From Haliclona indistincta (Eukaryota; Porifera; Demospongiae; Haplosclerida; Chalinidae): a stretch of DNA of 64,000 nucleotides. The stretch's first letter is position 1; every line of letters starts with the position of its first letter. Made by a program: the position numbers and the translations under genes. The stretch spans positions 7,483,199-7,547,198 of the forward strand of contig OZ024787.1 of NCBI GenBank assembly GCA_964017065.1. Direction: 5' to 3'. Shown here in pieces: positions 5,090-42,300 of this stretch. Under the pieces are notes generated by a model. The model did not search any database. It was not told where the DNA came from and saw only the letters and a list, made by a program, of their open reading frames with translations.

Positions 5090-6774
5090 GGATAGTCATC
5101 GATGAACTTACATGTTGGCCCAGGCATGTGATGCTAATGCTGTTACTAAACATAACTCTACTCACTGATGAAAATTCAATAATAATGGTCACATACCTGA
5201 TAAAGTGTTGACAGGGCTGGCCGCTGCAGTTGTAGCTATTATGATATGCTAACGACTCTTTCTAAACATTCTTTGTCAATGTGATCCTCCAACTGATCAA
5301 ACTCTCTCACATGATAATCCCCAACTGATAGACCAGTGATGTTGACCAATCCTTCATCACTACCACTCAATTGATGCAGTGTTTGATCTCTGCAGTATCA
5401 CCCTGTTCATTTTGTATCACTGCTACACCTGGTCCAGTTGAATTGTACACTCCACTAGTATGGAAGTGATATCAGAATGAACATCACAATGTTGGACATC
5501 ATAGGAACCTGTATAGGTGTGCAGGAAGAAAATCAATTAATAAAATTATAAGTGAACTTACTGAAAAGAACTGTCATCATTTCGATGTTTATATTCCCAA
5601 TGCCGATGATTATTCTTTTCAATGAAGATTGTGTGATTCATTAGGCTAGGTTGTGAAATAGCCACAGTAGTGTGTGGGGTCTTGTTTGAGCTGTTTGTCA
5701 TTGGGTAAGTCACAGAAGACAATTCTCGATCAGGACAGACAGCAAGACTCCGCTAAAAACCAATTAATGATCTACAGTGGACACAAAGTTGTACACTTAC
5801 TCGTTGTATATTGACTGCAAAAGTAGCAGCACTGTGAGTGATATTGTAGTTGGTTACCAAAGGTTGAGACACACTTGCTAGATCGTAATAGTCTATAGGG
5901 AACAGATTGTTAATTTAATGTACAATCCAGACTTCCTGCAATACCGAAGTAGAAAGAGTAAAATTTTTCCTTTAAGCGCTAAATTAAAAATGTAATTTAA
6001 TTATAATAATAATTATTATTATTATCAATACTTTCGCTTACAGGGAAGTGGCCTATTATTGCACTGTCACAATAATTATGGTCACATTAGCATGTAGTTT
6101 TGAATGACGATCACTGGTAGAAGATACTGAGTGTTGGTGGTAGTGTCACTGACGATCACATCGCCAGTGTTGTTGTTCACTGAGATCACTGTGTACACCA
6201 GCAGTTACTGGAGGATCCCATGAAGGATTGAAGGATCCCATAGTAGAGTGTTGAATGAACGATTGATTTGAGGTTGATGACTTCCATAGTACCAATACCT
6301 GTATGACAGTAATATATGAGATATCTGAGATAACTAGTCTACTAGTATTGTTCACAACTCACCAGAGAGAACAGTCAGGATAGCAGTGTTACTAGTCACT
6401 TCACCAGGATACAATACACACCGTACAGTAGTGCCATTGTTCTCTATCGTTGCTGGTACAGTGAGAGAGGACTGTACCATGCCTGAAGCTGTCACTGGAG
6501 TCAGTAGAGTGGTATGAAAAATGGCTCGATCTGTGATTCTGATGTCAGTAGGAAATAAATCATCAACTTTCCACACAATGATATCAGCACCAATGGCAGC
6601 ACAGTGGATTCTCTCCAATCAGCGCACTTACTGACACAGGACCCTCTGTGATAGCTACAAATTTAATCATTGTTGTAGATAGTACGCATTAGGAAGCATG
6701 ATTTTCAACATATTTGCAGCACTAGCAGTTGTGATCAAGACAATCAAAATATAAACTCGCTTCTGATACGTCAT
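5090..6774 (-). pseudogene. Receptor unit U1, broken and lacking TM and tail
   Basis: Array member with homologues of exons 1-7: signal peptide (ATG at 6774), Ig (6654-6363), FnIII-like (from about 6307), short exon near 5890-5810, region near 5757-5560, region near 5500-5210 and stalk near 5172-5100. Several lesions are visible. The exon-1 splice donor is A instead of G (ATATGTTG where sisters have GTATGTTG). The Ig exon has an 8-base deletion before the first Ig cysteine, giving a frameshift, and a 9-base insertion later. The FnIII exon is disrupted by frame breaks and its 3' half is replaced by unrelated sequence. The next-to-last ectodomain exon has a 1-base deletion shared with U3 and U6. 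No TM or cytoplasmic exons follow; homology ends against element A near 5085. It is almost certainly non-functional. Confidence 0.85.
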
Positions 6775-7872
6775 TTTAGCAGATTGCCAGGACAAGTTCT
6801 GGATCAGAGAATCAACGTAACAACAGTCACATAGTACTTGAACTATAAAGCTCATGAAATGGTTTTATTACGCATTTTCTTGCGTGCCAATCTGAAGCTG
6901 CAAAGGCGGGGCTCGTGATGTAATAACGTGGGCGGGCTGATCAGTTCCACGTGGTGCATTAACGTATCAGAATCCATTCGTCTCTCCATGGACTCTCTAA
7001 CTACTGCCAACTAGCAGCCAAATGCCTATGTCACTGCAATTATTTTTTTGTATTTTTAAATACTCGTTTACAATACAGCCTAGTACATGAAAACTATGTA
7101 AATTTACCAATGCAATGCACAACAGCTAACTCACTACAAGCTAGCTTTTTATAATTTCACTGAATATCCCTGGTCTCAGCATGCATAAGCTAAGGTCACA
7201 TGTCACATTTGTTTGTGAAAAGAGCTGAATTACAATCACTACTCGTACGATGTAATAAACTATTAATAAATGCTTTTTATGGTACATCAGTTCAGCAGCA
7301 TTGATCATCCTTCACTGCATCACAATATTGCGGCCTGGGATGGGAACAAACAGACCATGTGAATCAAGAGATGATTAGTGTTGCACACTCAGACCAATTA
7401 GAATATGACGTCAAAAATATTCACGTGTGCTAAACTCTTATATCTTTCCCATACCTAGATCAGTAAGGCTCATTGAGTATGTGTACTCTAATAACTATAA
7501 GAACACAGCTAACAGTACAACGCTGAAATTGAACATAGTTAAAAAGTATCGGTGAACTGAATACACATCTTGATGACCTCTGAATAAACAGGAACATGTA
7601 GAATTTGTACACCATGTATTCAGAAATTAAAGAGTATTCTTTGATATTATTCACATCATACTACGACTCAGGATTCAACAGACCGTCTACATGTACAGTA
7701 TAAACTGACCCTCAATAGCTTTTACAGTTAAAACACAGTTGGTAAGAACACACCACCTGTAATTTTATAGAATACAAAATTCACAATCTTAGAACTCAAT
7801 TATCATAACACTGTTTGAAAAACATGCTTATACTACATCTCACTAGTGTAGATAAGCTACATAACCGCACTA
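6775..7872. other. Region between units U1 and U2
   Basis: The right half (about 7250-7870) is the block lying 3' of a full receptor unit and recurs after U4 (about 15050-15690) and U5 (about 19700-20335). The left half (about 6840-7030) is the conserved block upstream of type I units. It includes a CACGTG E-box and 'taacgtgggcgggctgatca', and recurs near 14450-14640, 19090-19260 and 25740-25870. Minus-strand frames in the downstream block look coding, but in U2's copy the frame carries an in-frame TAG, so I do not call an exon. Confidence 0.5.
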
Positions 7873-10800
7873 TTATAATGCTTTGCTCAATAACATTGAA
7901 ATGTTCCCTTGCGGTAAACTTACAGAGAAGGATGGTCGGGTATTGAGTTCAACAGGTTGAAGAGCAGCCGGTGTATTGCCAGAGTGCTGGTCTTGATTAT
8001 ACTGCAGTTCATGTTTGTTAACAGTATTGAACGGAAAAAATACACGTTGTGACTGACCTTTTTGGGAGTGCCTGGTTTCTGGACGGCAGCGTAATTTACA
8101 GGCCTGAGTTCAACTGGAGGAGCAGGAATAGGGGAATTAGCAGAGAGCTGTACTTGGGCGTAGTGTAGTGTCGGTTTCAGTGAGCTGGATGAAGTAGTGC
8201 TGGGTGCTCCTGAATCAGAGCTGGTATTTGGTGGAGTGGGTAGAAAATTAGTGATTGGCTCCATATAAGTGGGGTCAAGATCATTGTCTACCTGAAACAA
8301 TAGTTATGAGAAGGTCATTTTTAACACGATGAATCAGAACACGACTACACAAACAGTTGTGAGTACTACTACAGACCCCATGATAGTCACATACTGTACA
8401 CAATACATTCAAATGTAGCCAGCATGCTTTGGTGCCAGGACGCTTCAGTACTCATGGCAGCGCCATGATGCTTCTGTACACAGCCAGGAGCCAGGATGCT
8501 GGTTATTCTTACATGTGTTTGTTGCATCTCAACATATCTAAAGAAAACAATAAACATGAGAACCCACAAGTCACCTTGACAAACCTGGTGGACTCTTGTT
8601 CAATATCTGATGCTATAATTAAAAGTACAAACCAGTTACTGTAACAATAATAATGGTGAATTACTTGGACTGGTCTTGCTATGACAATGTGAATATTTGC
8701 GGTTAATGTACAACACCACGGCGATAATGATGATGGTAATCATCACAACAAGTGTCACACTACCTGTGATCAAGAGTGTAGCAGTGATGTCGACTGCAAA
8801 AAAGAAAAAATAGTTCACCGATGCAAGTAGTGGTCGTGCACTCACAAGTTGGTTCAGGCATGCTGCTGGGAGTGATGTTGATGCTGTTACTGATCATGTC
8901 TCCACTCACTGATGGAAATGTCAGGTCTACAACTTCAACAGCACATGATTTGGACGAACAATAAAGTCACATACCTGACAATGTGTTGATAGGGCTGGAA
9001 GCAGTTGCTGCTATGATTGTTATTAGCACATCGTGTTCATAAGCAGGAGCAATGTTGTTAAGGGGATCTTCCAACTGATCGAAAACTCTGGCACGATAAT
9101 CCCCAGTTGGTAGACCCGTGATGTTGACAGATCCTTTGTTAGTTCCACTCAATCGATCCAATACTCCAGTAGCTACAGTGTGACCCTGTTCATTTTGTAT
9201 GACTGCAATACCTGGTTCAGTTGAATTGATAACAAAAGTACACTCCACTAGTATGGAGGCAAGATCAGAATGAACATCACATTGTTGGACATCATAGGAA
9301 CCTGTACAAGTGTATAGGAAGAAAATGCTAAAACAACTGAACTTACTGAAAAGAACTGTCATCATTTCGATGTTTCTATTCCCAATGCCGATTATAAGGT
9401 CAAATGAATAGTGGATATTCTTTTCGATGAAGATTATGTAGTCGATTACACCAGGTTGTGAAATAGCCACAGTAGTGTGTGGGGTCTTGTTTGAGCTGTT
9501 TGTCACTGGGTAAGTCACAGATGACAATTCTTGATCAGGACAGACAGCAAGACTCCGCTAAAATTATAACCAATGATTACACAGGCATGTTCATGAAAAT
9601 ACATACTTGTTGTACATTGATTGCAAAAGTAGCAGCACTGTGAGTGACATTGTAGTTGGATACCACAGGTTGAGACAAGTTTGCCAGATTGTAATAGTCT
9701 GTGGATAAGAAATGTAAACTTTAATGCAAACTTCCAGTAACGCTGAAGTAGAAAATGTATAATCATGGCCCCAGCTTTACCTCAATGCACACTCACCTCC
9801 TGGTGTTCTCTCTATAACGACTGTACTATCACCATACAAGCCTGAGATTACAGTCACATTAGCTTTGTAGAACTGACAAAAATGAAGATCATCCACTGGT
9901 AGAGGATACTGAGTGTTGGTGGTAGTGTCACTGACGATCACATCACCAGTGTTGTTGTTCACTACAGTCACTATGTAAGAGAGATCACTGAGTACACCAG
10001 CAGTTACTGGAGGGTCCCATAGTAGAGTGTTGAATGAAGGATTGAATCTGACATTAGTGACTCGCATAGTACCAATACCTGTATGATAGTAATATGAGAT
10101 AATTAGTCTACTAGTATTGCCATGAATGCCATCGCCGTGCATAGAAAATCCAGTTATTATGCCTCGGTGGGCGGAGCCACGAGGCATACAGTAGTTCGTC
10201 GGTTTGTCCTTCATTCTGTCATTCTGTCCTTCTGTCCGCAGGCAGAACTCCGCGTCGGCGGAAAACTAAGCGCTGATACTTGCAATACATGTTCAATTCG
10301 GTGTTGCCTCGGAATTGAATTGATAGACTTTTGGTTCCAAAGCTTCGTTACCTGCTTGAATGGCATTGCTGGACACTCGAGGCTCAGGGACTTCGCTGAA
10401 GAAAAAGCTGTCCACTATAGTCTTCTTCACAGCTTGTAAGACAATTCTGTACTCAAGGTAGTACAGTGAGTGCTGAGAAATCAATCGTGCTATCGCTAAG
10501 CAGCGCCAGCTCCAGCAAGCTAGCAACCAGCGCTCACGTGCTGTGTTGATTATAGGCACGCCCAACTGAATTCCATGTGGTTAGCACTGCTAGGCTTCTA
10601 ATTGCATAGTTGCAACCCACTAGCTTATTCTGCAAACAGTGCTGTATTGCAGCTTGTTGCAGCGCTCTTCAGCTTTAATTTCATCATACAGGAATTGCAT
10701 TCAACAACTATTATACTGCATTGTGATTGCTGTACAGCAAGGTATAACAGCTGCAGTTTGTTGCTGTGTATGTGAAATGGTTGCATTCCACCGAGGCATC

Positions 10801-11565
10801 TGCACCTTTGGTGCTTCATTATCAAAATTACCGATGTATATCGTCACGAATCAGCAGTCTGTTAGAAATAACTGTTACAGATGTCAACCTGACTAACACA
10901 ATTGTTATAAATAGGAGAAGAGGCTGTCGCTCTGGAGAGACCTACTTTAGTTCTGGGGTTAGCATTCAGCTATTAGCGCTCACCGGAAACCCGACGTCAT
11001 TGAGCGTATACATAACACAAAGATGAACAAGAATCCGTGATATTCTTGGAAAAGCAAGAAATTAAACGCATGCGCAGACAGTATAAACCAGGCTCTATAT
11101 TCCGCCCACACAATAGAGCAGGCTATGTCCACACTGACTCACCAGGGAGAACAGTCAAGGTTGCATTGCTGCTAGCCACTTCACCAGGATACAATACACA
11201 GTGTACAGTAGTGCCATTGTTCTCTATCGTTGCTGGTACGGTGAGATTAGACTGTATATTGCCTGAAGCTGTCACAGGGATGCTTGGACGAATATCTCGA
11301 CTTGTGATTTCGGTGTCAGTGGCAAATTTATTATCTACTATCCAGACTATGGTAGCACCAGTGCCGGCACAGTGAAACACAGTATTCTCTCCAAACAGTG
11401 CACTCACTGACACCGGACCTTCTGTGATAGCTACACAACAGAGAATGACACATTGCACACGGAGCGAATGAATATAGACATGCATCGCATACTGGCAGCA
11501 GCACTAGAAAGTGCGATGAAGATAGAGAGAATACAAACTAGCTTCCGACGGACAGAGATCATCAT
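7873..11565 (-). CDS. Receptor unit U2: Ig-FnIII receptor with YxxM and two ITIMs, intact
   Basis: Twelve exons join in frame to about 632 residues: 11565-11493, 11430-11143, 10078-9797, 9698-9607, 9557-9347, 9301-8975, 8926-8846, 8793-8665, 8612-8585, 8537-8513, 8291-8058, 8001-7873. Order: signal peptide (two adjacent ATGs, hydrophobic core ending SSAAA); type II Ig domain with C...W...C and an NNGTTVHC second cysteine; FnIII-like domain (WDPP, YIVTV); two further ectodomain exons, one with NITGLPTGDYRARV; an NITPSS stalk; a TM helix (LVVMITIIIIAVVLY); and a tail with YVEM, YMEP, LHYAQV and VNYAAV. LHYAQV and VNYAAV fit the ITIM consensus and lie 23 residues apart. From family knowledge, phosphorylated ITIMs recruit SHP-type phosphatases and YxxM recruits PI3K; a role as an inhibitory surface receptor is inferred. 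Intron 2 is swollen to about 1.06 kb by transposons. The final stop follows readthrough of a donor-like GTAAGT, so the extreme C-terminus is less sure. Confidence 0.85.
10123..11130. mobile_element. About 1-kb transposon insertion in U2 intron 2
   Basis: In sister units this intron is about 53 bases. Here the same intron ends are separated by about 1,010 extra bases. The insert contains element family A copy 2 (about 10156-10820, bounded by the 'tgcctcggtgggcggagcca' palindrome and 'ccaccgaggcatctgcacct') and a second piece ending in 'gcatgcgcagacagtataaa', like the element at 3790-4205. Splice sites on both sides are preserved, so the insertion need not destroy U2. Confidence 0.8.
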
Positions 11566-12229: not shown

Positions 12230-12419
12230 GCCAGTAACTGGAACTGAACAATCTCTCTAACCAGTGCACTCACTGACACAGGACCTTCTGTGATAGCTAC
12301 ACAACAGAGAATGAAATATTGCACACAAGATGAATGAATATAGACATACTGGCAGTACTAGAAACTGCGATGAAGATAGTCAAAATAAAGACTTGCTTCC
12401 GACCGATGAAGATCATCAT
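12230..12419 (-). pseudogene. U3b: remnant signal-peptide exon plus truncated Ig exon
   Basis: A signal-peptide exon (12419-12350, with MMIF start and core IFIAVSS) is followed by the first part of an Ig exon (from 12296) that stops matching near 12232. The rest of the Ig domain and everything downstream is missing. A near-identical remnant lies at 23560-23750 in the duplicated block. About 325 bases to the right (12420-12744) hold no exon but are also shared with the duplicate. Confidence 0.75.
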
Positions 12420-12744: not shown

Positions 12745-14399
12745 AACTTACATGTTGGTCCAGGCATGACACTGGGAGTGATGCTAATGCTGTTACTAAA
12801 CATAACTCTATACTCACTGATGAAAATGTCATTAGAATGATGATCACATCATACCTGATAAAGTGTTGACAGGGATGGCCGCAGTTGTAGCTATTATGAA
12901 AGCTATAACGACTCATCGTGAACATATGCAGGATCTCCGTTGTCAATGTGATCTGAACAAGCACTCTCACATGATAATCTCCAACTGGTAGACCAGTGAT
13001 GTTGACCGATCCTTCATCATTATCACTCAATTGATGCAGTGTTTGATCGCTGCAGTATCACCCTGTTCATTTTTTATCACTGCTACACCTGGTCCAGTTG
13101 AATAGTACACTCCACTAGTATGGAAGTAATAGTCAGAATGAACATCACAATGTTGGACATCATAGGAAACTGTACAGGTGTGTAGGAAGGAAATCAAATA
13201 TTAAATAAATGAACTTACAGAAAATTAAAGAACTGTCATCATTTCGATGTTTGTAATACCAATTGCAATGCGATGACTGATTATTCTTTTCGATGAAGAT
13301 TGTGTAGTTCACTATAGACCAGGTTGTAAAATAGTTACAGCAGTGTGTGGGGTCTTGTTTGAGCTGTTTGTCATTGGGTAAGTCACAGATGACAATTCTT
13401 GATCAGGACAGATGGTAAAGCTCTGCTAAAAACAAATGATCTGCGATGGACACAAGGTTGTATCTTGATTGCAGCACTGTGAGTGATGTTGTAGTTGGCT
13501 ACCACAGGTTGAAACACACTTGCTAGATCATAATAGTCTAGGGAACATATTGTTAATTTAATGTATAAGCCAGGCTTCCTGCAATGCTGAAGTAGAAAGT
13601 GTAAAATGCTTCCAATATGCACTAATGTGTTTAATAATTATTATCACTTCAGTATTTTCGCTTACAGGAAACTGGCCTATTATTGCACTGTCACCATAAT
13701 TTATGGTCACATTAGTATGTAGTTTTGACATGGCTGAATGACAATCACTGATAGCAGACACTGAGTGTTGGTGGTAGTGTCACTGACGATCACATCGCCA
13801 GTGTTGTTGTTCAGTACAGTCACTATGTAAGAGAGATCACTGAGTACACCAGCAGTTACTGGAGGGTCCCATAGTAGAGTGTTGAATAATGGATTGAATC
13901 TGAGGTTGATGACTTCCATAGTACCAATACCTGTATGATAGCAATTATGAGATAACTAGTCTACTAGTATTGTTTACAACTCACCAGAGAGAACAGTCAG
14001 GATGGCAGTGTTACTAGTCACTTCACCAGGATACAATACTCACTGTACAGTAGTACCATTGTTCTCTACCGTTGCTGGTACAGTGAGAGATGACTGTATT
14101 GTACCTGAAGCTGTCACTGGAGTGGTATGAAAAATGGCTCGATCTGTGATTCTGATGTCAGTAGCAAATAAATCATCAACTTTCCACGCAATGATGTCAG
14201 CACCAATGGCAGCACAGTGGAACTGAGTATTCTCTCCAATCAGTGCACTTACTGACACAGGACCCTCTGTGATAGCTACAAAATGAAACATAATGTAAAT
14301 AGCATAAAGAAGCATTGTTTTCAACATACTTGCAGCACTAGCAGTTGTGATCAAGATAATCAAAATAAAAACTTGGTTCTGACAGACAAAGAACGTCAT
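12745..14399 (-). pseudogene. Receptor unit U3, nonsense-mutated, no TM or tail
   Basis: Exons 1-7 of the receptor are recognisable: signal peptide (14399-14330), Ig (14275-13985), FnIII-like (from 13930), then the remaining ectodomain exons to the stalk near 12750. In the Ig exon the codon for the second disulphide cysteine is TGA (14042-14040) where sisters have TGT, so translation would stop inside the Ig domain. The 3' half of the FnIII exon is replaced by sequence shared with U1 and U6, and a later ectodomain exon has the same 1-base deletion. No TM or tail exons follow. This unit is U6's counterpart in the duplicated block. Confidence 0.85.
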
Positions 14400-15692
14400 T
14401 TTAGCAGATTGCCAGTACAAATTCTGGATCAGAGAAGCAACGTAACAACAGTCACATAGTACTTGAACTATAAAGCTCTCGTGAAATGGTTTTATTGCGC
14501 GTTTTCGTGCGTGCCATTCTGAAGCTGCAAAGGCGGGGCTCGTGATGTACTAACGTGGGCGGGCTGATCAGTTCCACGTGGGGCATTAACGTATCAGAAT
14601 CCATTCGTCTCTCCATGGTCTCTCTAACTACTGCCAACTAGCTCACAGGTGCAGCCAAAATACCTATGTCACTGCAATTATTATTTTTGTATTTTTAAAT
14701 ACTCAGTGTTATTTTCATTTATTAATACCGCCTAGTACATGTACATATTCTGTAATGGACTACTGGAGCTGCTCTTTGCACTTACCTTTGCATGCAGCAC
14801 GCATGGGCAGGCTGATATGTAGGAAAGAATAGATAACGTCATTAGAGAGAGAACTAATAATATGAGTGACTGCCTGGCATAGTTACAATGTAAACTATCC
14901 ATGGTCTATCGGCCCTGAAAAGTTACCAATGCAATGCACATCACCTAACTTACTATAAGCTAGCTTTTTTATGATTTCACTGACTATCCCCAGCCTCAGC
15001 ATGCAGGTCACATGTCACATTTGTTTGTGAAAAGAGCTGAATTACAATCAATACTCATACGATGAAAACATTATTAATAAATTGCTTTTTAAGTTACATC
15101 AGTTCAGCAGCATTGATCATCCTTCACTGCACACATCCATCACAATATTGCAGCCTGGGATGGGAACAAATAGACCATGAGAATCAAGAGATGATTAGTG
15201 TTGCACACTCTGACAAATTAGAATAATTATGTCGTCAAAAATATTCACGAGTGCTCTTATATTTTTCCCATACCTAGATCAGTAAGGCTCGGTATGTGTA
15301 CTCTAATAACTATACGAACACAGCTAACAGTACAATGCTGAAATTGAACATAGTTAAAAAATAACGGTGTACTGAATACACGTCTTGATGACCTCTGAAT
15401 AAACAGGAGCAAGTAGAATGTGTACACCATGCATTCAGGAATAAAAGAGTATTCTTCGATATTATTCACATCATACCATGACTCAGGATTCAAAAGAGCG
15501 GCTACATGTACAGTATAAACTGACCCTCAATTGCTTTTACAGGTAAGAACACACCACCTGTAATTTCACAATTCACAATTTTAGAACTCAATTATCATAA
15601 CACAGTTGCAAAACATGCTTATACTACGTCTCAATAGTGTAGATAGGCTACATAACCGCACTATTATGCTTAATAACATCGAAAATTTTCCC
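14400..15692. other. Region between U3 and U4
   Basis: Contains the type I upstream block (about 14450-14640, with CACGTG and 'aacgtgggcgggctgatcag'), an AT-rich stretch nearly identical to 19260-19560, and the post-tail block of U4 (about 15050-15690). I see no independent gene. The frame at 15257-15493 is conserved with 19889-20125, but recent duplication explains that. Confidence 0.55.
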
Positions 15693-18600
15693 TTATGGTA
15701 AACTTACAGAGAAGGACGGTCGGGTATTGAGTTCAACAGGTTGAAGAGCAGCCGATGTATTCCCAGAGTGCTGGTCTTGATCATACTGTAATTCATTAAC
15801 AGTATTGAATGGAAGGAATACATGTTGTGACTGACCTTTTTGGGAGTGGCTGATTTCTGGACGATAGCGTAATTTACAGGCCTGTGTTCAGCTGGAGGAG
15901 CAGGAGTGGGAGGGTTAGCAGAGAGCTGTACTTGAGCGTAGTGTAGTGTTGGTTTCAGTGAGCTGGATGAAGTAGTGAGGGGTGCTCCTGAATCAGAGAT
16001 GGTATTTGATTGAGTGGGTAGGAAATTAGTGATTGGCTCCATATAAGTGGGGTCAAGATCATTGTCTACCTGAAACAATAATAATGAGAAGTTCATGCTC
16101 ATTATTAACATAATGAGAACACGACCACACAAACAGTTGTGAGTACTACTACAGACCCCATGATAGTCACATACTGTACACAATACATTCAAATGCAGCC
16201 AGCATGCTTTGGTGCCAGGACGCTTCAGTACTCATGGCAGCGCCATGATGCTTCTGTACACAGCCAGGAGCCAGGATGCTGGTTATTCTTACATGTGTTT
16301 GTTGCATCTCAACATATCTAAAGAAAACAATAAACATGAGAACCCACAAGTCACCTTGACAAACCTGGTGGACTCTTGTTCAATATCTGATGCTATAATT
16401 AAAAGTACGAAGCAGTTATAATAATAATAATAATGGTGAATTACTTGGACTGGTCTTGCTGTGACAATGCAAATATTTGCGGTTAATGTACAACACCACG
16501 GCGATAATGATGATGGTAATCATCACAACAAGTGACACACTAGCTGTTGTCAAGAGTGTAGCAGTGATATCGACTGCAAAAAAAAGAAAAATATAGTCAA
16601 ATAGTGATCGTACGCTCACAAGTTGGTTCAGGCATGCTGCTGGGAGTGATGTTGATGCTGTTACTGAACATGTCTCCACTCACTGATGGAAATGCTACAA
16701 CTTAAGGGTGGCGGTATACCAGTTTTTATGAATATTAATGAGCGACTTTCTTTTATCTGCACTGAGCTCGTGACAGAGCAACGCTAGCAGCGTGAAACTC
16801 GCTCTGATGCATCAATGAGTGTGTCTCAATGTATAATGCAGCTTGAAACGTTGCACAATATTCTACACCAAGGAATAATGCAGGAACAATCGACATCGTA
16901 CGGATACGCATTTTTCTAGTCAAAAATCTCTCCTGACTAACCGTGCAGCAAAGGTTACCAGCTGAAATTCGACTCTTATAAACCATTTCTAGGTGCTGAC
17001 GAAGAGTTTTGTTGACCCACGCTGAACGTAGCTGTTCTATGCATCGACAAACATGGTCGTCACTGCAAAATCAGCCATAATTTAGAATGTAAAAGTGTTT
17101 TTCTTAAAATCAGAAAAAGCAAATGCAGAAAACTCTTCGTCAGCACCTAGAAATGGTTTATAAGAGTCGAATTTCAGCTGGTAACCTTTGCTGCACGGTT
17201 AGTCAGGAGAGATTTTTGGCTAGAAAAATGCGTATCCGTACGATGTCGATTGTTTCTACATTATTCCTTGGTGTACAATATTGTGCAACGTTTCAAGCTG
17301 CTTTATACATTGAGACACACGCATTGATGCATCAGAGCGAGTTTCACGCTGCTAGCGTTGCTCTGTCACGAGCTGCAGATAAAGAAAGTCGCTCATTAAT
17401 ATTCATAAAAACGGGTATACCGCCACCTTAAACAGCACATGATTTGGACGAACAACAAAGTCACATACCTGACATTGTGTCAACAGGGCTAGAAGCAGTT
17501 GCTGCTTTGATTGTTATCAACGCATTGAGTTCATAAGCAGGAGCAATGTTGGTTAAAGGGATCTTCCAACTGATCGAAAACTCTGGCACGATAAATCCCG
17601 GTTGGTAGACCCGTGATGTTGACAGATCCTTCGTTAGTTCCACTCAATCGATCCAATACTCCAGTTGCTACAGTGTGACCCTGTTCATTTTGTATGACTG
17701 CAATACCTGGTTCAGTTGAATTGATAGCAAAAGTACACTCCACTAGTATGGAGGCAAGATCAGAATGAACATCACATTGCTGGACATCATAGGAACCTGT
17801 ACAGGTGTGTAGAGAGGAAGAAACTGCTAAAACAACTGAACTTACTTAAAAGAACTGTCATCATTTCGATGTTTCTATCCCCAATGCCGATCATAATGTC
17901 AAATGAATAGTGAATATTCGTTTCGATGAAGATTGTGTAGTTCACTAGACCAGGTTGTGAAATAGCCACAGTAGTGTGCGGAGTCTTGTTTGAGCTGTCC
18001 GTCATTGGGTAAGTCACAGATGACAATTCTTGATCAGGACAGACAGCTTTAAGACTCCGCTAAAATTAAAACCAATGATTACGCAGGCATGTTCATGAAT
18101 ATACATACTCGTTGTATATTGACTGCAAAAGTAGCAGCACTGTGAGTGATATTGTAGTTGTATACCACAGGTTGAGACAAGTTTGCCAGATTGTAATAGT
18201 CTATGAATAAGAAATGTAAATTTTAATGCAAACTTCCAGTAATGCTGAAGTAGATAGTGTAAAATGCAGGAAGCTTTACCTCAATGCGTACTCACCTCCT
18301 GGTGTTCTCTCTATAATGACTGCACTATCACCATACAAGCCTGAGACTACAGTCACATTAGCTTTGTAGAACTGACAAAATTGGAGATCAACCACTGGTA
18401 GAGGATACTGAGTGTTGGTGGTAGTGTCACTGACGATCACATCGCCAGTGTTGTTGTTCACTACAGTCACTATGTAAGAGAGATCACTGAGTACACCAGC
18501 AGTTACTGGAGGGTCCCATAGTTGAGCGTTGAATGAAGGATTGAATCTGACATTAGTGACTCGCACAGTACCAATACCTGTATGATAGCAATATGAGATA

Positions 18601-19020
18601 ACTAGTCTACTAGTATTGTTCAAAACTCACCAGAGAGAACAGTCAGGATAGCAGTGTTACTAGTCACTTCACCAGGATACAATACACACTGTACAGTAGT
18701 GCCATTGTTCTCTATCGTTGCTGGTACAGTGAGAGAGGACTGTATCGTACCTGAAGCTGTCACTGGAGTGGTATGAAAAATGGCTCGATCTGTGATTCTG
18801 ATGTCAGTAGCAAATAAATCATCAACTTTCCAAGCAATGATGTCAGCACCAATGGCAGCACAGTGGAACTGAGTATTCTCTCCAATCAGTGCACTTACTG
18901 ACACAGGACCCTCTGTGATAGCTACATACAAAATGAAACATAATGTAAATGGCATAAGGAAGCATGATTTCCAACATACTGGCAGCACTAGCAGTTGTGA
19001 TCAAGATAATCAAAATAAAA
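15693..19020 (-). pseudogene. Receptor unit U4, full layout but start lost and frameshifted
   Basis: All twelve exon positions are present: signal core near 19010-18980, Ig type I 18921-18631, FnIII 18577-18296, 18200-18109, 18059-17846, 17796-17469, stalk 16694-16620, TM 16573-16445, 16392-16365, 16317-16293, tail 16069-15836, last 15785-15693. Two lesions are seen. A deletion in exon 1 removes the ATG found in U3 and U6, leaving an upstream in-frame TGA and no replacement start. The sixth exon is 328 bases instead of 327, with an extra base at a 'CCTTTAACCAAC' site, which shifts the frame before the TM. The tail itself is still open and keeps LHYAQV and VNYAIV. A TTAA element sits in the intron before the stalk. 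It is either a recent pseudogene or a donor for gene conversion; assembly error could mimic the 1-base change. Confidence 0.8.
16706..17427. mobile_element. 722-bp inverted-repeat element flanked by TTAA
   Basis: The element sits exactly between two TTAA copies (16702-16705 and 17428-17431). The empty site in sister units reads 'ctacaacttaaacagcac', with a single TTAA. Its arms (about 16706-17014 and 17129-17427) are inverted copies of about 300 bases with ends GGGTGGCGGTATACC and GGTGGCGGTATACC. TTAA duplication is the known signature of the piggyBac superfamily, so this is probably a piggyBac-type MITE. Open frames of 77 and 102 residues in the two arms are mirror copies of one sequence with no recognised domain. 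Confidence 0.85.
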
Positions 19021-20339
19021 ACTTGCTCAGATCAGTGCCAGTACAAGTTCTGGATCAGAGAAGCAACGTAACAACAGTCACATAGTACTTGAACTATAAA
19101 TCTCTCATGAAATGGTTTTATTGCGCATTTTCTTGCGTGTCAATCTGAAGCTGCAAAGGCGGGCTCGTGATGTACTAACGTGGGCGGGCTGATCAGTTCC
19201 ACGTGGGGCATTAACGTATCAGAATCCATTCGTCTCTCCATGGTCTCTCTAACTACTGCCAACTAGCTCACAGGTGCAGCCAAAATACCTATGTCACTGC
19301 AATTATTATTTTTGTATTTTTAAATACTCAGTGTTATTTTCATTTATCAATACAGCCTAGTACATGTACATATTCTGTAATGGGCTACTGGAGCTGCTCT
19401 TTGCACTTACCTTTGCATGCAGCACGCATGGGCAGGCTGATATGTAGGAAAGAATAGATAACATCATTAGAGAGAGAAATAATAATACGAGTGACTGCCT
19501 AGCATAGTTACAATGTAAACTATCCATGGTCTATCGGCCCTGAAATGTTACCAATGCAATGCACATCACCTAACTTACTATAAGCTAGCTTTTTTATAAT
19601 TTCACTGAATATCCCCAGCCTCAGCATGCATAAGCAAAGGTCACATGTCACATTTGTTTGCGAAAAGAGCTGAATTACAATCACTACTCATACAATGAAA
19701 AAATTATTAAGCAATGCTTTTTATGGTACATCAGTTCAGCAGCATTGATCATCCTTCACTGCACACATCCATCACAATATTGCAGCCTGGGATGGGAACA
19801 AATAGACCATGAGAATCAAGAGATGATTAGTGTTGCACACTCAGGCTAATTAGAATAATTATGTCGTCAAAAATATTCACGTGTGCTCTTATATTTTTCG
19901 CATACCTAGATCAGTAAGGCTCGGTATGTGTACTCTAATAATTATAAGAACACGGCTAACAGTACAACGCTGAAATTGAACATAGTTAAAAAATAACGGT
20001 GAACTGAATACACGTCTTGATGACCTCTGAATAAACAGGAGCATGTAGAATGTGTACACCATGCATTCAGGAATAAAAGAGTATTCTTCGATATTATTCA
20101 CATCATACCATGACTCAGGATCCAACAGAGCGGCTACATGTACAGTATAAACTGACCCTCAATTGCTTTTACAGGTAAGAACACACCACCTGTAATTTCA
20201 CAATTCACAATTTTAGAACTCAATTATCATAACACAGTTGCAAAACATGCTTATACTACGTCTCAATAGTGTAGATAGACTACATAACCGCACTATTATG
20301 CTTTGAAGAAGCTTGCTTAATAACATCGAAAATTTTCCC
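19021..20339. other. Region between U4 and U5
   Basis: Holds the type I upstream block of U4 (about 19090-19260), an AT-rich spacer shared with 14640-15000, and the post-tail block of U5 (about 19700-20335). No gene of its own is recognised. Confidence 0.55.
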
Positions 20340-22913
20340 TTATGGTAAACTTACGGAGAAGGATGGTCGGGTATTGAGTTCAACAGGTTGAAGAGCAGCG
20401 GGTGTATTCCCAGAGTGCTGGTCTTGATCATACTGCAGTTCATTAACAGTATATTGAATGGAAAGAATACACGTTGTGACTGACCTTTTCGGGAGTGGCT
20501 GATTTCTGGACAGTAGCGTAATTTACAGGCCTGTGTTCAACTGGAGGAGCAGGAGTGGGAGGGTTAGCAGAGAGCTGTACTTGAGCGTAGTGAAGTGTTG
20601 GTTTCAGTGACCTGGATGAAGTAGTGCAGGATACTCCTGAATCAGAGCTGGTATTTGGTGGAGTGGGTAGGAAATTAGTGATTGGCTCCATATAAGTGGG
20701 GTCAGGATCATTGTCTACCTGAAACAATAAGAGAAGGTCATTACTAACATAATCAGAACACGACCACACAAACAGTTGTGAGTACTACTACAGACCCACA
20801 TACTGTACACAATACATTCAAATGTAGTCAGGATGCATTTGGCACCATAATGCTTCTGTACACATCCAAGGCCCTGGCTTACATGTGTTTGTTGCATCTC
20901 AACATATCTAAAGAAAACAATAAACATGAGAACCCACAAGTCACCTTGACAAACCTTGTGGGCTCTTGTTCAATGTCTGATGCTATAATTAAAAGTACAA
21001 AGCAGTTACCATAACAATAATAATGATGAATTACTTAGACTGGTCTTGCTGTGACAATGCGAATATTTGCGGTTAATGTACAACACCACAGCGATAATGA
21101 TGATGGTAATCATCACAACAAGTGACACACTAGCTGTTGTCAAGAGTGTAGCAGTGATGCCGACTGCAAAAAAATAGTTCACCGATGCAAGTAGTGGTCG
21201 TGCACTCACAAGTTGGTTCAGGCATGCTGCTGGGAGTGATGTTGATGCTGTTACTGGTCATGACTCCACTCACTGATGAAAATGTCAGGTCTACAACTTA
21301 AACAGCACATGATTTGGATGAACAATAAAGTCACATACCTGACAATGTGTCGACAGGGCTGGAAGCAGTTGCTGCTATGATTGTTATTAGCACATCGTGT
21401 TCATAAGCAGGAGCAATGTTGTTAAGGGGATCTTCCAACTGATCGAAAACTCTGGCACGATAATTCCCAGTTGGTAGACCCGTGATGTTGACAGATCCTT
21501 TGTTAGTTCCACTCAATCGATCCAATATTCCGGTTGTTACAGTGTGACCTTGTTCATTTTGTATGACTGCAATACCTGGTTCAGTTGAATTGATAGCAAA
21601 AGTACACTCCACTAGTATGGAGGCAAGATCAGAACGAACATCACATTGTTGGACATCATAGGAACCTGTACAGGAGTATAGAGAGGAAGAAACTGCTAAA
21701 ACAATTGAACTTACTGAAAAGAACTGTCATCATTTCAATGTTTCTATTCCCAATGCCGATCATAATGTCAAATGAATAGTGAATATTCTTTTCGATGAAA
21801 ATTGTGTAGTTCACTAGACCAGGTTGTGAAATAGCCACAGTAGTGTGCGGGGTCCTGTTTGAGCTGTTTGTCACAGGGTAAGTCACAGAAGACAATTCTT
21901 GATCAGGACAGACAGCTTTGAGACTCCGCTAAAATTAAAACCAATGATTACGCAGGCATGTTCATGAATATACATACTCGTTGTATATTGACTGCAAAAG
22001 TAGCAGCACTGTGAGTGATATTGTAGTTGGCTACCACAGGTTGAGACAAGTTTGCCAGATTGTAATAGTCTGTGGATAAGAAATGTAAATTTTAATGCAA
22101 ACTTACAGTAATGCTGAAGTAGAAAGTGTAAAATGCCGGAAGCTTTACCTCAATGCATACTCACCTCCTGGTGTTCTCTCTATAACAACTGCATACAAGC
22201 CTGAGATTACAGTCACATTAGCTTTGTAGAACTGACAAAATTGGAGATCATCCACTGGTAGAGGATACTGAGTGTTGGTGGTAGTGTCACTGATGATCAC
22301 ATCGCCAGTGTTGTTGTTCACTACAGTCACTATGTAAGAGAGATCACTGAGTACACCAGCAGTTACTGGAGGGTCCCATTGTAGAGTGTTGAATGAAGGA
22401 TTGAATCTGACATTAGTGACTTGCATAGTACCAATACCTGTATGATAGCAATATGAGATAACTAGTTTACTAGTATTGTTCACAACTCACCAGAGAGAAC
22501 AGTCAAGGTTGCATTGCTGCTAGTCACTTCACCAGGATACAATACACACTGTACAGTAGTGCCATTGTTCTCTATCGTTGCTGGTACAGTGAGGTTAGAC
22601 TGTATCGTGCCTGAAGCTGTCACAGGGATGCTTGGACGAATACCTCGACTTGTGATTTCGTTGTCAGTAGCAAATTTACTATCTACTATCCAGACTATGG
22701 AGGCACCAGTGCCGGCACAGTGAAACACAGCATTCTCTCCAACCAGTGCACTCACTGACACAGGACCCTCTGTGATAGCTACACAACAGAGAATAACACA
22801 TTGCACACGAGGCGAATGAATACAGACATGCATCACATACTGGCAGCAGCACTAGAAAGTGCGATGAAGATAGTCAGAATACAAACTAGCTTCCGAGGGA
22901 CAGAGATCATCAT
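20340..22913 (-). CDS. Receptor unit U5: Ig-FnIII receptor with YxxM and two ITIMs, intact
   Basis: Twelve exons sum to 1,857 bases, 618 residues, with every junction in phase: 22913-22841, 22778-22491, 22437-22165, 22069-21978, 21928-21715, 21665-21339, 21290-21210, 21163-21035, 20982-20955, 20907-20883, 20718-20485, 20432-20340. Residues 1-24 are a signal peptide. Residues 25-120 form an Ig domain (C45, W54, C102). Residues 121-211 are FnIII-like. Residues 212-449 are further ectodomain and stalk with several N-glycosylation sequons. A single TM helix lies at about 458-480. The tail carries Y503 (YVEM), Y519 (YMEP), Y554 (LHYAQV), Y577 (VNYATV) and Y589 (YDQD). Y554 and Y577 fit the ITIM consensus. 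The YVEM motif arises only when exons 9 (28 nt) and 10 (25 nt) are spliced through a GTTTGT donor; this choice of donor is forced by frame. Cell-surface inhibitory signalling is the inferred role; the ligand is unknown. Confidence 0.87.
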
Positions 22914-23559: not shown

Positions 23560-23750
23560 TGAGCGGAGCAGTGGAACTGAACATTCTCTCCAACCAGTGC
23601 ACTCACTGACAGGACCTTCTGTGATAGCTACACAACAGAGAATGAAACATTGCACACAAGATGAATGAATATAGACATACTGGCAGTACTAGAAACTGCG
23701 ATGAAGATAGTCAAAATAAAGACTTGCTTCCGACCGACGAAGATCATCAT
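23560..23750 (-). pseudogene. U5b: remnant signal-peptide and Ig exon
   Basis: Signal-peptide exon 23750-23681, with a good GTATG donor, and the start of an Ig exon (from 23627) that has a 2-base deletion early on and stops matching near 23565. It is the duplicate of U3b and cannot encode a receptor. The gap from 23751 to 24039 carries no exon but is shared with 12420-12744. Confidence 0.75.
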
Positions 23751-24039: not shown

Positions 24040-25674
24040 ATAGTCATTGAAGAGTGTGATGAACCTACATGTTGGTCCAGGCATGACAATGGGAGTGATG
24101 CTAATGCTGTTACTAAACATAACTCTACTCACTGATGAAAATGTCATTAGAATGATGATCACATACCTGATAAAGAGTTGACAGGGATGGCCGCACGTGA
24201 ACACATGCAGGATCTCTGTTGTCAATTTGATCTTCCAACTGATCAAACACTCTCACATGATAATCCCCTACTGGTAGACCAGTGATGTTGACCGATCCTT
24301 CATCATTACCACTCAATTGATGCAGTGTTTGATCGCTGCAGTATCACCCTGTTCATTTTGTATCACAGCTACACCTGGTCCAGTTGAATTGTACACTCCA
24401 CTAGTATGGAAGTGATATCAGAATGAACATCACAATGTTGGACATCATAGGAACCTGTACAGGTGTGTAGGAAGGAAATCAATTATTAAATAAATGAACT
24501 TACTGAAAATTAAAGAACTGTCATCATTTCGATGTTTGTATTCCCAATTGCAATGCCGATGACTGATTATTCTTTCAATGAAGATTATGTAGTTCGCTAG
24601 ACCAAGTTGTGATATAGCCACAGTAGTGTGCGGGGTCTTGTTTGAGCTGTTTGTCACTGGGTATGTCACAGATGACAATTCTTGGATCAGAACAGATAGT
24701 AGAGCTCCACTAAAAACCAATGATCTACAATGGACACAAGGTTGTATATTGATTGCAAAAGTAGCAGCACTGTGAGTGATATTGGCTAGCTACCAAAGGT
24801 TGAAACACATTTGCTAGATCGTAATAATCTAGGGAATAGTTAATTAATGTATAATCCAATGCTGAAGTAGAAAGAGTAAACTTTTTCTTTTATGCACTAT
24901 TGTGTCTAATTATAATAATAATTATTATTATCATCAATATTTTGCTTACAGGGAAGTGGCCTATTATTGCACTGTCACCATAATTATGGTATTATGGTCA
25001 CATTAGCATGTAGTTTTGATATTGCTGAATGACGATCACTGGTAGAGGATACTGAGTGTTGGTGGTAGTGTCACTGATGATCACATCGCCAGTGTTGTTG
25101 TTTTGTTCACTACAGTCACTATGTAAGAGAGATCACTAAGTACACCAGCGGTTACTGGAGGGTCCTTGTTGAATGAAGTATTGAATCTGACATTGCTGAC
25201 TCGCATTGTACCAATACCTGTATGATAGCAATATGAGATAAATAGTCTACTAGTATTGTTCACAACTCACCAGAGAGAACAGTCAGGATACCAGTGTTAC
25301 TAGTCACTTCACCAGGATACAATACACACTGTACAGTAGTGCCATTGTTCTCTATTGTTGCTTGTATAGTGAGAGAGGACTGAGCTGTCACTGGAGTGGT
25401 ATGAAAAATGGCTCGATCTGTGATTCTGATGTCAGTAGCAAATAAATCATCAACTTTCCACGCAATGATATCAGCACCAATGGCAGCACAGTGGAACTGA
25501 GTATACTCTCCAATCAGTGCACTTACTGACACAGGACCCTCTGTGATAGCTACATACAAAATGAAACATAATGTAAATAGCATAGAGAAGCATTGTTTTC
25601 AACATACTGGCAGCACTAGCAGCTGTGATCAAGATAATCAAAATAAAAACTTGCTTCTGACAGACAAACTTCAT
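24040..25674 (-). pseudogene. Receptor unit U6, frameshifted, no TM or tail
   Basis: Exon 1 (25674-25608) encodes an intact signal peptide. The Ig exon (25549-25271) is in frame but 12 bases shorter than in U4, losing SGTI. The FnIII exon starts at 25217, loses the start of the WDPP segment, and has a 5-base insertion that shifts the frame. Its 3' half is replaced as in U1 and U3. The penultimate ectodomain exon carries the same 1-base deletion as U1 and U3. The stalk remnant lies near 24150-24060, with no TM or tail after it. A truncated, secreted Ig fragment is the only conceivable product. Confidence 0.83.
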
Positions 25675-37211: not shown

Positions 37212-37220
37212 GCAAGTGTG

Positions 37221-38759: not shown

Positions 38760-40433
38760 CGTGATGCTGGGAGTGACGTTGATGCTGTTACTTCACTCAC
38801 TGATGGAAATGTCAGGTCTACAACTTAAACAGCACATGATTTGGATGAACAATAAAGTCACATACCTGACAATGTGTCGACAGGGCTGGAAGCAGTTGCT
38901 GCTATGATTGTTATTAGCACATCGTGTTCATAAGCAGGAGCAATGTTGTTAAGGTGATCTTCCAACTGATCGAAAACTCTGGCACGATAAATCCCAGTTG
39001 GTAAACCAGTGATGTTGACAGATCCTTTGTTAGTTCCACTCAATCGATCCAATGCTCGAGTTGCTACAGTGTGACCTTGTTCATTTTGTATGACTACAAT
39101 ACCTGGTTCAGTTGAATTGATAGCAAAAGTACACTCCACTAGTATGGAGGCAAGATCAGAATGAACATCACATTGCTGGACATCATAGGAACCTGTACAG
39201 GAGTATAGGGAGGAAGAAACTGCTAAAACAACTGAACTTACTGAAAAGAACTGTCATCATTTCGATGTTCCTATTTCCAATGCCAATCATAAGGTCAAAT
39301 GAATAGTGAATGTTCTTTTCGATGAAGATTGTGTAGTTTATTACACCAGGTTGTGAAATAGCCACAGTAGTGTGTGGGGTCCTGTTTAAGCTGTTTGTCA
39401 CTGGGTAAGTCACGGATGACAATTCTTGATCAGGACAGACAGCTTTAAGACTCCGCTAAAATTAAAACCAATGATTACACAGGCATGTTCATGAATATAC
39501 ATACTCGTTGTATATTGACTGCAAAAGTAGCAGCACTGTGAGTGATATTGTAGTTGGCTACCACAGGTCGAGACAAGTTTGCCAGATTGTAATAGTCTAT
39601 GGATAAAAATGTAAATTTTAATGCAAACTTCCAGTAATGCTGAAGTAGAAAGTGTATAATGGGGGAAGCTTTACCTCAATGCATACTCACCTCCTGGTGT
39701 TCTCTCTATAATGACTGCATACAAGCCTGAGATTACAGTCACATTAACTTTGTAGAACTGACAAAATTGGAGATCATCCACTGGTAGAGGATACTGAGTG
39801 TTGGTGGTAGTGTCACTGACGATCACATCGCCAGTGTTGTTGTTCACTACAGTCACTATGTAAAAGAGATCACTGAGTACACCAGCAGTTACTGGAGGGT
39901 CCCATAGTAGAGTGTTGAATGAAGGATTGAATCTGACATTAGTGACTCGCATAGTACCAATACCTGTATAACAATATGAGACAACTAGTCTACTAGTATT
40001 GTTCACAACTCACCTGAGAGAACAGTCAGGATAGCAGTGTTGCTAGTCACTTCACCAGGATACAATACACACTGTACAGTAGTGCCATTATTCTCTATCA
40101 TTGCTGGTACAGTGAGGTTAGACTGTATCGTGCCTGAAGCTATCACAGGGATGCTTGGACGAATACCTCGACTTGTGATTTCGCTGTCAGTAGCAAATTT
40201 ACTATCTACTATCCAGACTATAGTGGCACCATTACCGGCACAGGGAAACACAGCATTCTCTCCAACCAGTGCAATCACTGACACAGGACCTTCTGTGATA
40301 GCTACACAACAGAGAATGACCCATTGCACACGAGGCGAATGAATACAGACATGCATCACATACTGGCAGCACTAGAAAGTGCGATGAAGATAGTCAGAAT
40401 ACAAACTAGTTTCCGACGGACAGAGATCATCAT
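38760..40433 (-). pseudogene. Receptor unit U7: intact ectodomain, lost TM and tail
   Basis: Exons 40433-40364, 40301-40014, 39963-39691, 39596-39505, 39455-39242 and 39192-38866 are all open and in phase, encoding signal peptide, Ig, FnIII-like and further ectodomain. The stalk exon (from 38817) has an internal deletion that shifts frame, and homology stops near 38760; no TM or tail is found to the left. The Ig exon begins like type II units (MMISV signal, DSKFATDSEITSRG) but ends like type I units (VTSNTAILTVLS), so it looks mosaic. It could still give a secreted protein ending soon after the stalk, so 'pseudogene' is a best guess. It lies 13 kb from the main array, across the transposon pile. 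Confidence 0.75.
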
Positions 40434-40555
40434 TTCAGGCTCAGCAGAATGTCAGGACAAGAGAAGTTCGCATATTCAGCAACACCATTTGCCGTTCTAA
40501 CTTCAGTAGCGCCAATAACCTGTACTGTAGTCTGTAGTAGCCTTTACAGTTTTTT

Positions 40556-40714: not shown

Positions 40715-41960
40715 TAACTAGCTAAGGGCTGTACAAATGCCGTCAATCTGTCACGAGGTATTGTCGAGTATTACTATTAGGTCAAAATAATTAGATTGTG
40801 TCTATTGACACCAATTCGTTTGTGTCAATAACGGCCACCGAAATGCTATTGACACCAACCTAAACCACTATAAAGGCATGTTTGTAGCGTTGATTGGTCA
40901 GCAGGTTCTGATGGCTTAGCGGTTTAGTACGGTGGCTAGTAATGCGATTGTTCAGGATCGATTCTCGCTCCAAGCGTTTTTTTTTTGACAACAACTTCAC
41001 TATCACTGTGGTACCCATTAATGTCGTGGGACTAGGAGAGTCAACAACAAGTACTTCCTTCATGTTTCCTTATACTCCAAGTAAGTAGATGTGTATAACA
41101 ATTATTTTGTGTCCTAGATTCAAATTCCATTTAGAAGTGTGTGTCTCGCTATGCTTATATTTTGGTGTAGCGAAAATAGGCATAGCATTATTAATTTTAA
41201 TGAGGTTTGGATTTGTATATACAGCTAATCTCAACAGTGATTGTACTGTTGGCTACTGCTACTAATATTCAATGATAAATTCAGATTAGCTACCTTGTTC
41301 AGGAATGATTGTACACTATCACACACAATTACCGCTAAATGACAATTTATAATAGCACCAATTTGCAGTTTCAGACTGCCACTGTTACTTCATTCTCAAA
41401 AGGTGAATAGAATGTTTACAAACTGAAGTATAGCTGATGTGTTTACGTGATGTAGCTGCTTACACAACCATTTCATCAGAGATATCTTCAACAGGTAACA
41501 TACAATAGTCTATGCAAACATCAGAATTTCAAATTAATTTGCACAATAATCTATTATTTGTACTGTTTACACAAAACAATTATTCGTGCCTGATTCGTGC
41601 TTTCTTTTATCGCAATGTGCACTGTGAGGATATCTTAATGATTAATTTCCCTATAGTTGTTTATAGCACAGCAATTGTATCACCATCGATGATAACAGCT
41701 GACTCAACAGGTAAAGATATGTGGCTCACAGAGCGATACAAAGTGCCACGAAGTGGTACGGAATTAAGCACGGATTTTTCAACGGACCTGCAATTGACCG
41801 TACTATCTATGCTTTTTCTTTCATCAAATCCTCCACAATACGCCATATTCGAAACGTAGCCGAGATTCTTCTACTCATCATGACACATAGAACAGTTTGC
41901 TATGCGGTTTGATTAGGGGTCCAGACAGTTATTAATGTTTAAATTAAGTTTGAGTCCTAC
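40715..41960. other. Flank of U7, then no gene
   Basis: To about 40800 it matches the upstream flanks of U2 and U5. At 40801-40860 'ctattgacaccaa' recurs with inverse copies, a small hairpin. The 115-residue frame at 41512-41859 has no recognised domain. Confidence 0.45.
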
Positions 41961-42300
41961 TATGGGATTGCTCGATCTGAGATTTTAATGTCAGTAGCCT
42001 AGCATGACAACGAAAGCAGGACAGTCATGGCAGCATGCCACAGACAAGTGTACTTAGCCACAGACAAGTGTACTTGACAAGCATGACACAGACAAGTGTA
42101 GCTAGACTACTTGGTCAGAAAGAATGCTCAGTTCATTGTGGCACAGTGAACTGAGCATTCTTTCTGACCAAGTACACTTGCTGATACCAGCAATTGTGAA
42201 AACTTACTTCTGACAGATTGCTGGACAATTTAGGATCAGTGAAGCAACACTACTAGTGAATATCACGCCCGTTATTTGGATTATAATTTATAAAGCCCGT
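41961..42300 (-). pseudogene. U8: vestigial receptor 5' end
   Basis: 41963-42000 resembles part of the type I Ig exon ('gctcgatctgagattttaat' against 'gctcgatctgtgattctgat'). 42180-42260 resembles the signal-peptide exon and its flank ('ttctgacagattgctggaca...aggatcagtgaagcaac'). The middle is replaced by repeats, including a perfect hairpin at about 42108-42170 ('tacttggtcagaaagaatgc' and its inverse). It shows the array once extended to this side. Confidence 0.6.

Follow-up and report, generated by a model that had tools for sequence, protein, structure and literature searches.

A tandem array of immunoglobulin-domain receptors with ITIM tails in the sponge Haliclona indistincta is one branch of a large family with two alternative tails

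What is an array of receptor genes whose tails carry immunoreceptor tyrosine-based inhibitory motifs (ITIMs) doing in the genome of a sponge? The array lies in a stretch of 64,000 nucleotides of the Haliclona indistincta genome (C5:7483199-7547198, in an assembly of 144 Mb and 46 contigs), which we call the window. We find that the receptors in the window belong to one branch of a large family of type I membrane proteins, specific to this lineage; other members of the family end in a second kind of tail. It is on balance probable that the family forms a paired inhibitory/activating receptor system that would work like KIR/LILR, Hydractinia Alr or Botryllus FcoR, with an ectodomain unlike theirs; that allorecognition is its main use is a tentative proposal.

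Self-comparison of the window by BLAST reveals duplicated blocks spanning 5.1-40.5 kb. These comprise seven related units, A to G, head to tail on the minus strand from 40433 down to 5128, together with fragments, as a first-pass annotation made from the letters alone had described. Units were delimited with a spliced protein-to-DNA aligner written for this analysis, which admits only GT-AG introns, and the exon inventory of each unit comes from blastn of unit E exons against the window (E <= 1e-4). The features, in window coordinates, are as follows.

20169..22913, minus: unit E, intact receptor gene of 617 residues and 12 exons, next codon TAA (spliced model without frameshift)
22841..22913, minus: E exon 1, signal peptide (MMISVPRKLVCILTIFIALSSAA; spliced model, signal peptide by eye)
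22491..22778, minus: E exon 2, Ig domain (Pfam, family profile, AlphaFold2 model of a relative)
22165..22437, minus: E exon 3, fibronectin type III (FnIII) domain (Pfam fn3)
21978..22069, minus: E exon 4, extracellular (spliced model)
21715..21928, minus: E exon 5, extracellular (spliced model)
21339..21665, minus: E exon 6, membrane-proximal, probably a beta-sandwich (AlphaFold2)
21210..21296, minus: E exon 7, stalk (spliced model)
21035..21163, minus: E exon 8, transmembrane segment, core without a charged residue (translation)
20945..20982, minus: E exon 9, juxtamembrane (spliced model)
20485..20718, minus: E exon 10, tail with DPTYMEP and the ITIMs LHYAQV and VNYATV (spliced model)
20355..20432, minus: E exon 11, tail (YDQDQHSGNTPAAL...; spliced model)
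20169..20189, minus: E exon 12, tail end VVCSYL and stop (spliced model)
7712..11565, minus: unit B, intact receptor gene of about 627 residues and 12 exons, ITIMs LHYAQV and VNYAAV (spliced model)
15540..19027, minus: unit D, broken copy that keeps the transmembrane and ITIM exons (spliced model, blastn)
16702..17431, no strand: inverted-repeat element in unit D, arms 16702-17010 and 17129-17431, 96% alike (self-comparison)
38762..40433, minus: unit G, open ectodomain, transmembrane or tail exon not found (spliced model, blastn)
5128..6766, minus: unit A, pseudogene, 10 frameshifts when forced into alignment with E (spliced alignment, blastn)
12754..14399, minus: unit C, pseudogene, 9 frameshifts and 1 stop when likewise aligned (spliced alignment, blastn)
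24071..25674, minus: unit F, pseudogene, 7 frameshifts when likewise aligned (spliced alignment, blastn)
12249..12419, minus: fragment, signal peptide and partial Ig exon (blastn with unit E exons)
23569..23750, minus: fragment, signal peptide and partial Ig exon (blastn with unit E exons)

The exons for the Ig and FnIII domains, exons 4, 5 and 6 and the stalk exon are present in all seven units. Those for the transmembrane segment, juxtamembrane region and ITIMs occur in three (B, D and E), and blastn at the same threshold found no transmembrane or tail exon in A, C, F or G. Units B and E are open across 12 modelled exons each, neither requiring a frameshift or a stop; the earlier claim of two open units, put there at 618 and about 632 residues, stands, with lengths of 617 residues for E and about 627 for B, whose modelled 618 residues are followed by nine codons and a TGA. 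The 22 introns of the two genes measure 42-1064 nt and are all GT-AG, which is no independent test because the aligner admits GT-AG alone. In unit D exon 6 is frameshifted by one base and the stalk exon, beside the inverted-repeat insertion, is damaged; inspection revealed no start codon in the unit. Outside the window, the same C5 cluster includes R1, which is open like B and E, and L2 and R2, with one frameshift each in the full-length model that disappears with an alternative splice site when the ectodomain alone is modelled.

What kind of protein do the intact units encode? Both B and E have the layout signal peptide, Ig, FnIII, further extracellular domains, stalk, transmembrane segment and a tail with two ITIMs; the architecture first proposed holds, apart from a YxxM, for these two units, the transmembrane and ITIM exons being limited to three of the seven. 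Profile and structure searches, suggested at the time as a check, support the Ig and fn3 assignments and give no fold match at E <= 0.001. Single-sequence Pfam searches are weak (ig at E 0.11 in unit E, under the Pfam cut-off), and PF00047 was matched in five of ten family members (best E 1e-3); the Cys, Trp and Cys columns of the Ig core are invariant in an alignment of the ten. Against the PDB, the Ig family profile matches titin best (E 3e-4), followed by DCC and antibody chains, and neither KIR nor LILR is among the 60 listed of 105 matches. An AlphaFold2 model of a relative's Ig-FnIII exon reaches a predicted local distance difference test score (pLDDT) of 66-83 over Ig residues 11-80 and leaves the remainder unresolved (mean 49.9); the folds closest to it are Ig, with no match at that threshold. 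With the core Cys-Trp-Cys present, we assign exon 2 to the immunoglobulin superfamily. The fn3 match in exon 3 has E 0.0021 in unit E and 1.6e-5 in a relative (L032), and Pfam returned none in exon 3 of unit D. Exon 6 is probably a beta-sandwich, judging from its AlphaFold2 model (mean pLDDT 74), whose Ig/FnIII-like fold matches are weak and do not reach E <= 0.001; it has no convincing sequence match in the PDB.

Pfam finds no TIR, kinase, sushi or aggregation-factor-type domain in the modelled protein, and the identities of receptor kinase and TIR receptor, neither domain having been found, were rejected. The whole protein has no sequence match in the PDB. In a set of 5.8 billion proteins, from which 7995 candidates were scored, a hand-spliced query of 619 residues found no homologue at E <= 0.001, a weak negative because the full-length query met short exon open reading frames. 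When a relative's membrane-proximal exon was the query, 303 proteins were matched at E <= 0.001, of which the 120 listed are all from ENA and without names.

The tails of B and E each contain two consensus ITIMs 23 residues apart, LHYAQV and either VNYATV or VNYAAV. Five C5 genes (B, E, L2, R1 and R2) share DPTYMEP, L(H/N)Y(A/T)QV, VNYA(T/A)(V/I) and further tyrosines, and the pattern [ILVS]xYxx[ILV] occurs twice in the tail of each; for every one of the five, two or more such motifs arise by chance in 1.1-1.6% of 20,000 shuffled tails. A YxxM motif had also been read into the window tails, but a pattern search finds it in none of the five genes, B and E included; it is present in the second kind of tail, elsewhere in the genome. 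Among six divergent ITIM exons, taken from C3, C5 and C6, the linkers differ, and YA is invariant at both sites, as is V at -2 of the second ITIM; counted by eye, 9 of the 12 sites conform to the strict consensus, with at least one in each exon.

How far does the family extend beyond the window? A whole-protein search of the genome gave 126 exon matches on C1, C3, C4, C5 and C6 (71 of 740 candidates scored). Searches with single exons placed exon 6 on eight contigs (C1, C3, C4, C5, C6, C7, C9 and C10; best 150 of 205 candidates) and the Ig exon on seven (C1, C3, C4, C5, C6, C7 and C9; best 150 of 291); as only part of the candidates was scored in each, the family counts are lower bounds. Ig exons, with pseudogenes counted, number at least 150, most of them in a single cluster of 1.1 Mb: 103 of the 150 listed exon-6 matches lie within C3 2.85-3.98 Mb, and 8 more at C3 16.2 Mb.

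Two kinds of tail are attached to these ectodomains. Type II is the ITIM-type tail, the putatively inhibitory kind and the only kind found in the window; type I reads NPAYITMKRITLNKNTAYETV and then YETV. Type I has 120 matches genome-wide at E <= 0.01. Type II has 43 at E <= 0.1, every one inside a receptor cluster (C3 2.9-4.0, C5 7.4-7.6 and C6 10.9-11.0 Mb). We assigned a tail to an exon-6 match, using the 150 listed matches alone, when it lay at most 6 kb downstream and ahead of the next listed match: 94 have type I only, 23 type II only and 2 both. The two cassettes are nearly mutually exclusive between genes. The median distance from exon 6 to tail is 707 nt for the 96 type I pairs and 1374 nt for the 25 type II pairs. 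In a shorter-range control, with limits of 1,100 nt (type I) and 1,600 nt (type II), tails lie downstream of 89 and 17 of the 150 listed matches respectively, and of neither type is there a single one upstream or on the opposite strand. Counted from the tails, a listed exon-6 match lies at most 3 kb upstream of 95 of the 120 type I matches and of 30 of the 43 type II. On C6 the kinds alternate, locus L025 having ITIM exons at 1.3 and 9.5 kb with a type I tail between them at 5.5 kb.

Twelve type I tails, picked from the fetched loci by their NPAY pattern, were read. NPAYITM and TAYETV are present in all twelve; a further YETV follows after 6 residues in nine and after 11 in three, and YENV occurs in four. 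TAYETV fits the consensus of the immunoreceptor tyrosine-based switch motif (ITSM), TxYxxV/I, in every one of these tails.

Two observations on individual copies may be added. A 2271-base block with receptor exons is 100% identical between C1:16370000-16379999 (L027) and C3:2865000-2874999 (L028), and is either a very recent copy or an assembly artefact. Broken copies exist in the C3 cluster as well: the ectodomain model of one (L029, C3:2940700-2946200) is open except for an in-frame stop in exon 5.

Does the genome encode proteins that could read such tails? Two adjacent SH2-SH2-PTP (SHP-type) genes lie at C9:7649400-7654200 (L037), each a single open frame with HCSAGIGRTG (translation, Pfam), and SH2 and PTP searches give a third, intron-containing candidate at C2 12.786-12.788 Mb. 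From sequence, then, a tandem-SH2 phosphatase gene appears to be available to the ITIM tails. Six open frames of about 400 residues on C2 14.2-14.8 Mb each have a tyrosine kinase directly after an SH2, and a p85 iSH2 match adjoins SH2 on C8. The likeness in layout to other clustered Ig receptors with ITIM tails, to which the first-pass annotation had pointed, is stronger than claimed: it extends genome-wide, with two tails, and SHP-type phosphatases are encoded.

Once a ligand is engaged, tyrosine kinases would phosphorylate both tyrosines of the ITIM pair; spaced 23 residues apart, the two phosphotyrosines would recruit a tandem-SH2 phosphatase, and the resulting signal would be inhibitory. 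The type I tail (NPAYITM, TAYETV, YETV and, in some copies, YENV) may dock PTB-, PI3K- or Grb2-type adaptors and give the opposite, activating signal. The variable outer domains might read self/non-self or microbial ligands, the cell summing 'go' and 'stop' inputs. Ligand, kinase phosphorylation, SHP recruitment, opposite polarity and self/non-self use are steps that we infer. The proposal in full is of a sponge paired-receptor complex of well over 100 genes, in which ITIM/SHP 'stop' and PI3K/ITSM-type 'go' signals share one ectodomain family that serves self/non-self recognition, tail exons being passed between the clusters of different chromosomes as cassettes and the outer domains diverging; in that complete form we regard it as possible rather than probable.

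Several results weigh against a paired system of this kind. Of the window's seven units, five are dead or have no tail, and 31 of the 150 listed exon-6 matches have neither tail nearby. The six picked ITIM exons miss the strict consensus at 3 of 12 sites (P at -2 in two, T at +3 in one), and the C5 ITIM exon has a ratio of nonsynonymous to synonymous differences per site (pN/pS) of 0.87 across six copies, broken D included, which is weak constraint. A strict immunoreceptor tyrosine-based activation motif (ITAM; YxxL/I x6-12 YxxL/I) was rejected for the type I tail, which, at spacings of 6 or 11, fails because V and not L/I stands at +3; the polarity given to its signal is a guess. The analysis did not resolve Syk in the genome, and the label 'Src-type' is unsupported for the SH2-kinases, in which SH3 domains were not looked for. 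One paper takes an Amphimedon Syk-family kinase as outgroup (PMC9601881).

The tests of selection cover three overlapping groups of 7, 5 and 8 genes, four of 19 copies having been excluded for a frameshifted model. In all twelve domain-by-group tests pN/pS is below 1; in the cross-validated segment test, which takes the segment picked in one gene group over to a different group, 11 of 12 results are unremarkable and one stands at 176 of 4000. Positive selection is shown neither by the whole-domain nor by the cross-validated tests. Ig segment 48-78 (reference numbering), picked by eye with pN/pS of 1.06 and 1.38, failed the cross-group test and is unproven. Finally, homogenisation accounts as much as constraint does for the uniformity of exon 6 and of the type I tail. 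Within C3/C4, pS is 0.033 in the exon-6 core versus 0.264 in Ig, and 0.037 in the type I tail. Between C6 and C3/C4 the type I tail cores are nearly identical (pS 0.023), although the distant group has strongly divergent outer domains (Ig pS 0.33, exons 4-5 pS 0.54). The inner half of the receptor may thus have been homogenised or exchanged as a cassette, the outer half diverging.

Could the ligands be microbial? As sensors of microbes or symbionts the receptors would attach to microbial surfaces and adjust phagocytosis or the tolerance of symbionts in place of allorecognition. This is a branch of the paired-receptor proposal with another ligand, so that their likelihoods overlap, and we think it rather unlikely. 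Sponges, to which the animal belongs, filter-feed and harbour microbes. PMC7308585 discusses families of sponge receptors as sensors of microbes. No sequence feature indicates a microbial ligand, however, Ig and FnIII domains suit protein ligands equally, and the present data fit both microbe sensing and self/non-self recognition. It is improbable, in our estimate, that these are receptors of adhesion or development, with phosphotyrosine tails that regulate adhesion or uptake and an expansion due to incidental duplication and homogenisation. The selection results and the low pS of proximal exon and tail are compatible with such a role, and NPxY can serve as an endocytic motif, but two alternative signalling cassettes on related ectodomains, and ITIM-type doublets retained in divergent copies, suit paired immune-type receptors better. 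That the window branch, with A, C and F pseudogenes, D broken and G without transmembrane and tail exons, is mostly a relic kept by chance and now functionless is very unlikely, as B and E are fully open, R1 likewise, and the ectodomains of L2 and R2 are open with an alternative splice site.

How does a paired inhibitory/activating family in a sponge, the reading we prefer, compare with known systems? Vertebrate KIR, LILR and Siglec receptors are clustered type I Ig receptors with ITIM or other tails, fast duplication and pseudogenes. The sponge family is similarly clustered and type I, with an Ig outer domain, ITIM or other tails, and duplication with pseudogenes. Unlike KIR and LILR, its ectodomain combines Ig with FnIII and further domains, and the counterparts of its ITIM receptors bear a multi-tyrosine tail of their own, not a charged transmembrane residue for an ITAM adaptor. 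The Alr family of Hydractinia comprises 41 genes (PMC11999971, PMC12065747), with ITIM/ITAM-type motifs reported on Hydractinia candidates (PMC12065747). As there, ours is a lineage-specific Ig receptor cluster of a non-bilaterian with ITIM-type motifs; its Ig, FnIII and unnamed domains and its at least 150 Ig exons (pseudogenes included) set it apart. The FcoR of Botryllus are described as a large family of type I receptors of 520-610 residues with ITIM, hemITAM or core tyrosine motifs (PMC12065747). Their ectodomain of one V Ig, sushi and two C2 Ig domains differs, on that description, from the sponge protein, which has no Pfam sushi match. Neither ectodomain homology with Alr, FcoR or KIR-LILR nor their domain order was found, since the order differs and there is no specific PDB match, Alr and FcoR being compared by their published domain order.

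Among sponge molecules, the usual allorecognition candidate is the aggregation factor, which PMC12065747 cites. It is a secreted proteoglycan core. The present family resembles it as a large sponge family with a putative link to cell recognition, and differs in having no such Pfam match. Among known sponge Ig receptors are the Ig-TIR receptors (PMC7308585) and the Ig-bearing receptor kinase of Geodia (PMC12018476), with which ours shares an Ig ectodomain but no Pfam TIR or kinase match. The main text of a transcriptomic study of Amphimedon grafts (PMC5450542), in the form available, is without the words immunoglobulin, receptor and tyrosine. No report of a comparable sponge receptor family was found in the literature searched, which covered few subscription papers and no bioRxiv preprints.

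A sponge family with an ITIM tail and an alternative tail would carry the convergence to another phylum, and provides concrete candidate genes for sponge self/non-self recognition. It also allows a testable biochemical claim, namely that the SHP-type SH2 domains of this animal bind the ITIM tails. If the proposal is true, opposed phosphotyrosine receptor logic either predates the split of sponges from other animals or was invented again; should the switches be functional, self/non-self receptor logic may be as old as sponges.

Among the Ig units lies a second family of receptor-like genes, H. Its genes encode a transmembrane segment and a tail with repeated DNPAYERFELKDCEAYSNGLK, and the window copy occupies 26841-29467 on the minus strand. 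Further copies on C5 lie at 7423588, 7442706, 7590294, 7605289 and 7620003, and there are 55 matches genome-wide. To the eye, the ectodomain reading frames of the copies outside the window are Ig-like. In the C5 cluster each of the six copies is followed, on its own strand, by an Ig unit about 1.1-1.9 kb downstream. Each Botryllus FcoR is encoded beside a member of a second receptor family, according to PMC12065747, and the position of the H genes beside Ig units on C5 recalls that pairing. Tandem repeats of 87 and 126 bases lie within the H tail exon (window 26883-27207), so the number of tyrosine repeats in the H tail may vary.

Between unit G and gene H, two inverted arms of 560 bases, 99% identical and about 1.3 kb apart (window 30935-33388), are perhaps a young mobile element. 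Further along, a TBC-domain (RabGAP) exon lies at 52348-52893 on the minus strand, in a gene region of 52348-55875; the exon at 54976-55875 (minus) probably belongs to the same gene, with a 98% identical protein in an ENA contig. Elsewhere in the genome, clusters of tyrosine-phosphatase and fn3 exons (C3 15.6-16.0, C5 0.92-1.04 and 5.08-5.21, and C10 6.1-6.5 Mb) suggest an expanded receptor phosphatase family. The mitochondrial sequence, too, suggests a sponge: its genetic code excludes bilaterians, and the presence of several mitochondrial tRNAs speaks against cnidarians and ctenophores. In cox1, on C46, TGA encodes the Trp of HLFWFFGHPE and AGA the Arg of NMRAPG, and genes for tRNA-Gly, Ser and Asn lie nearby.

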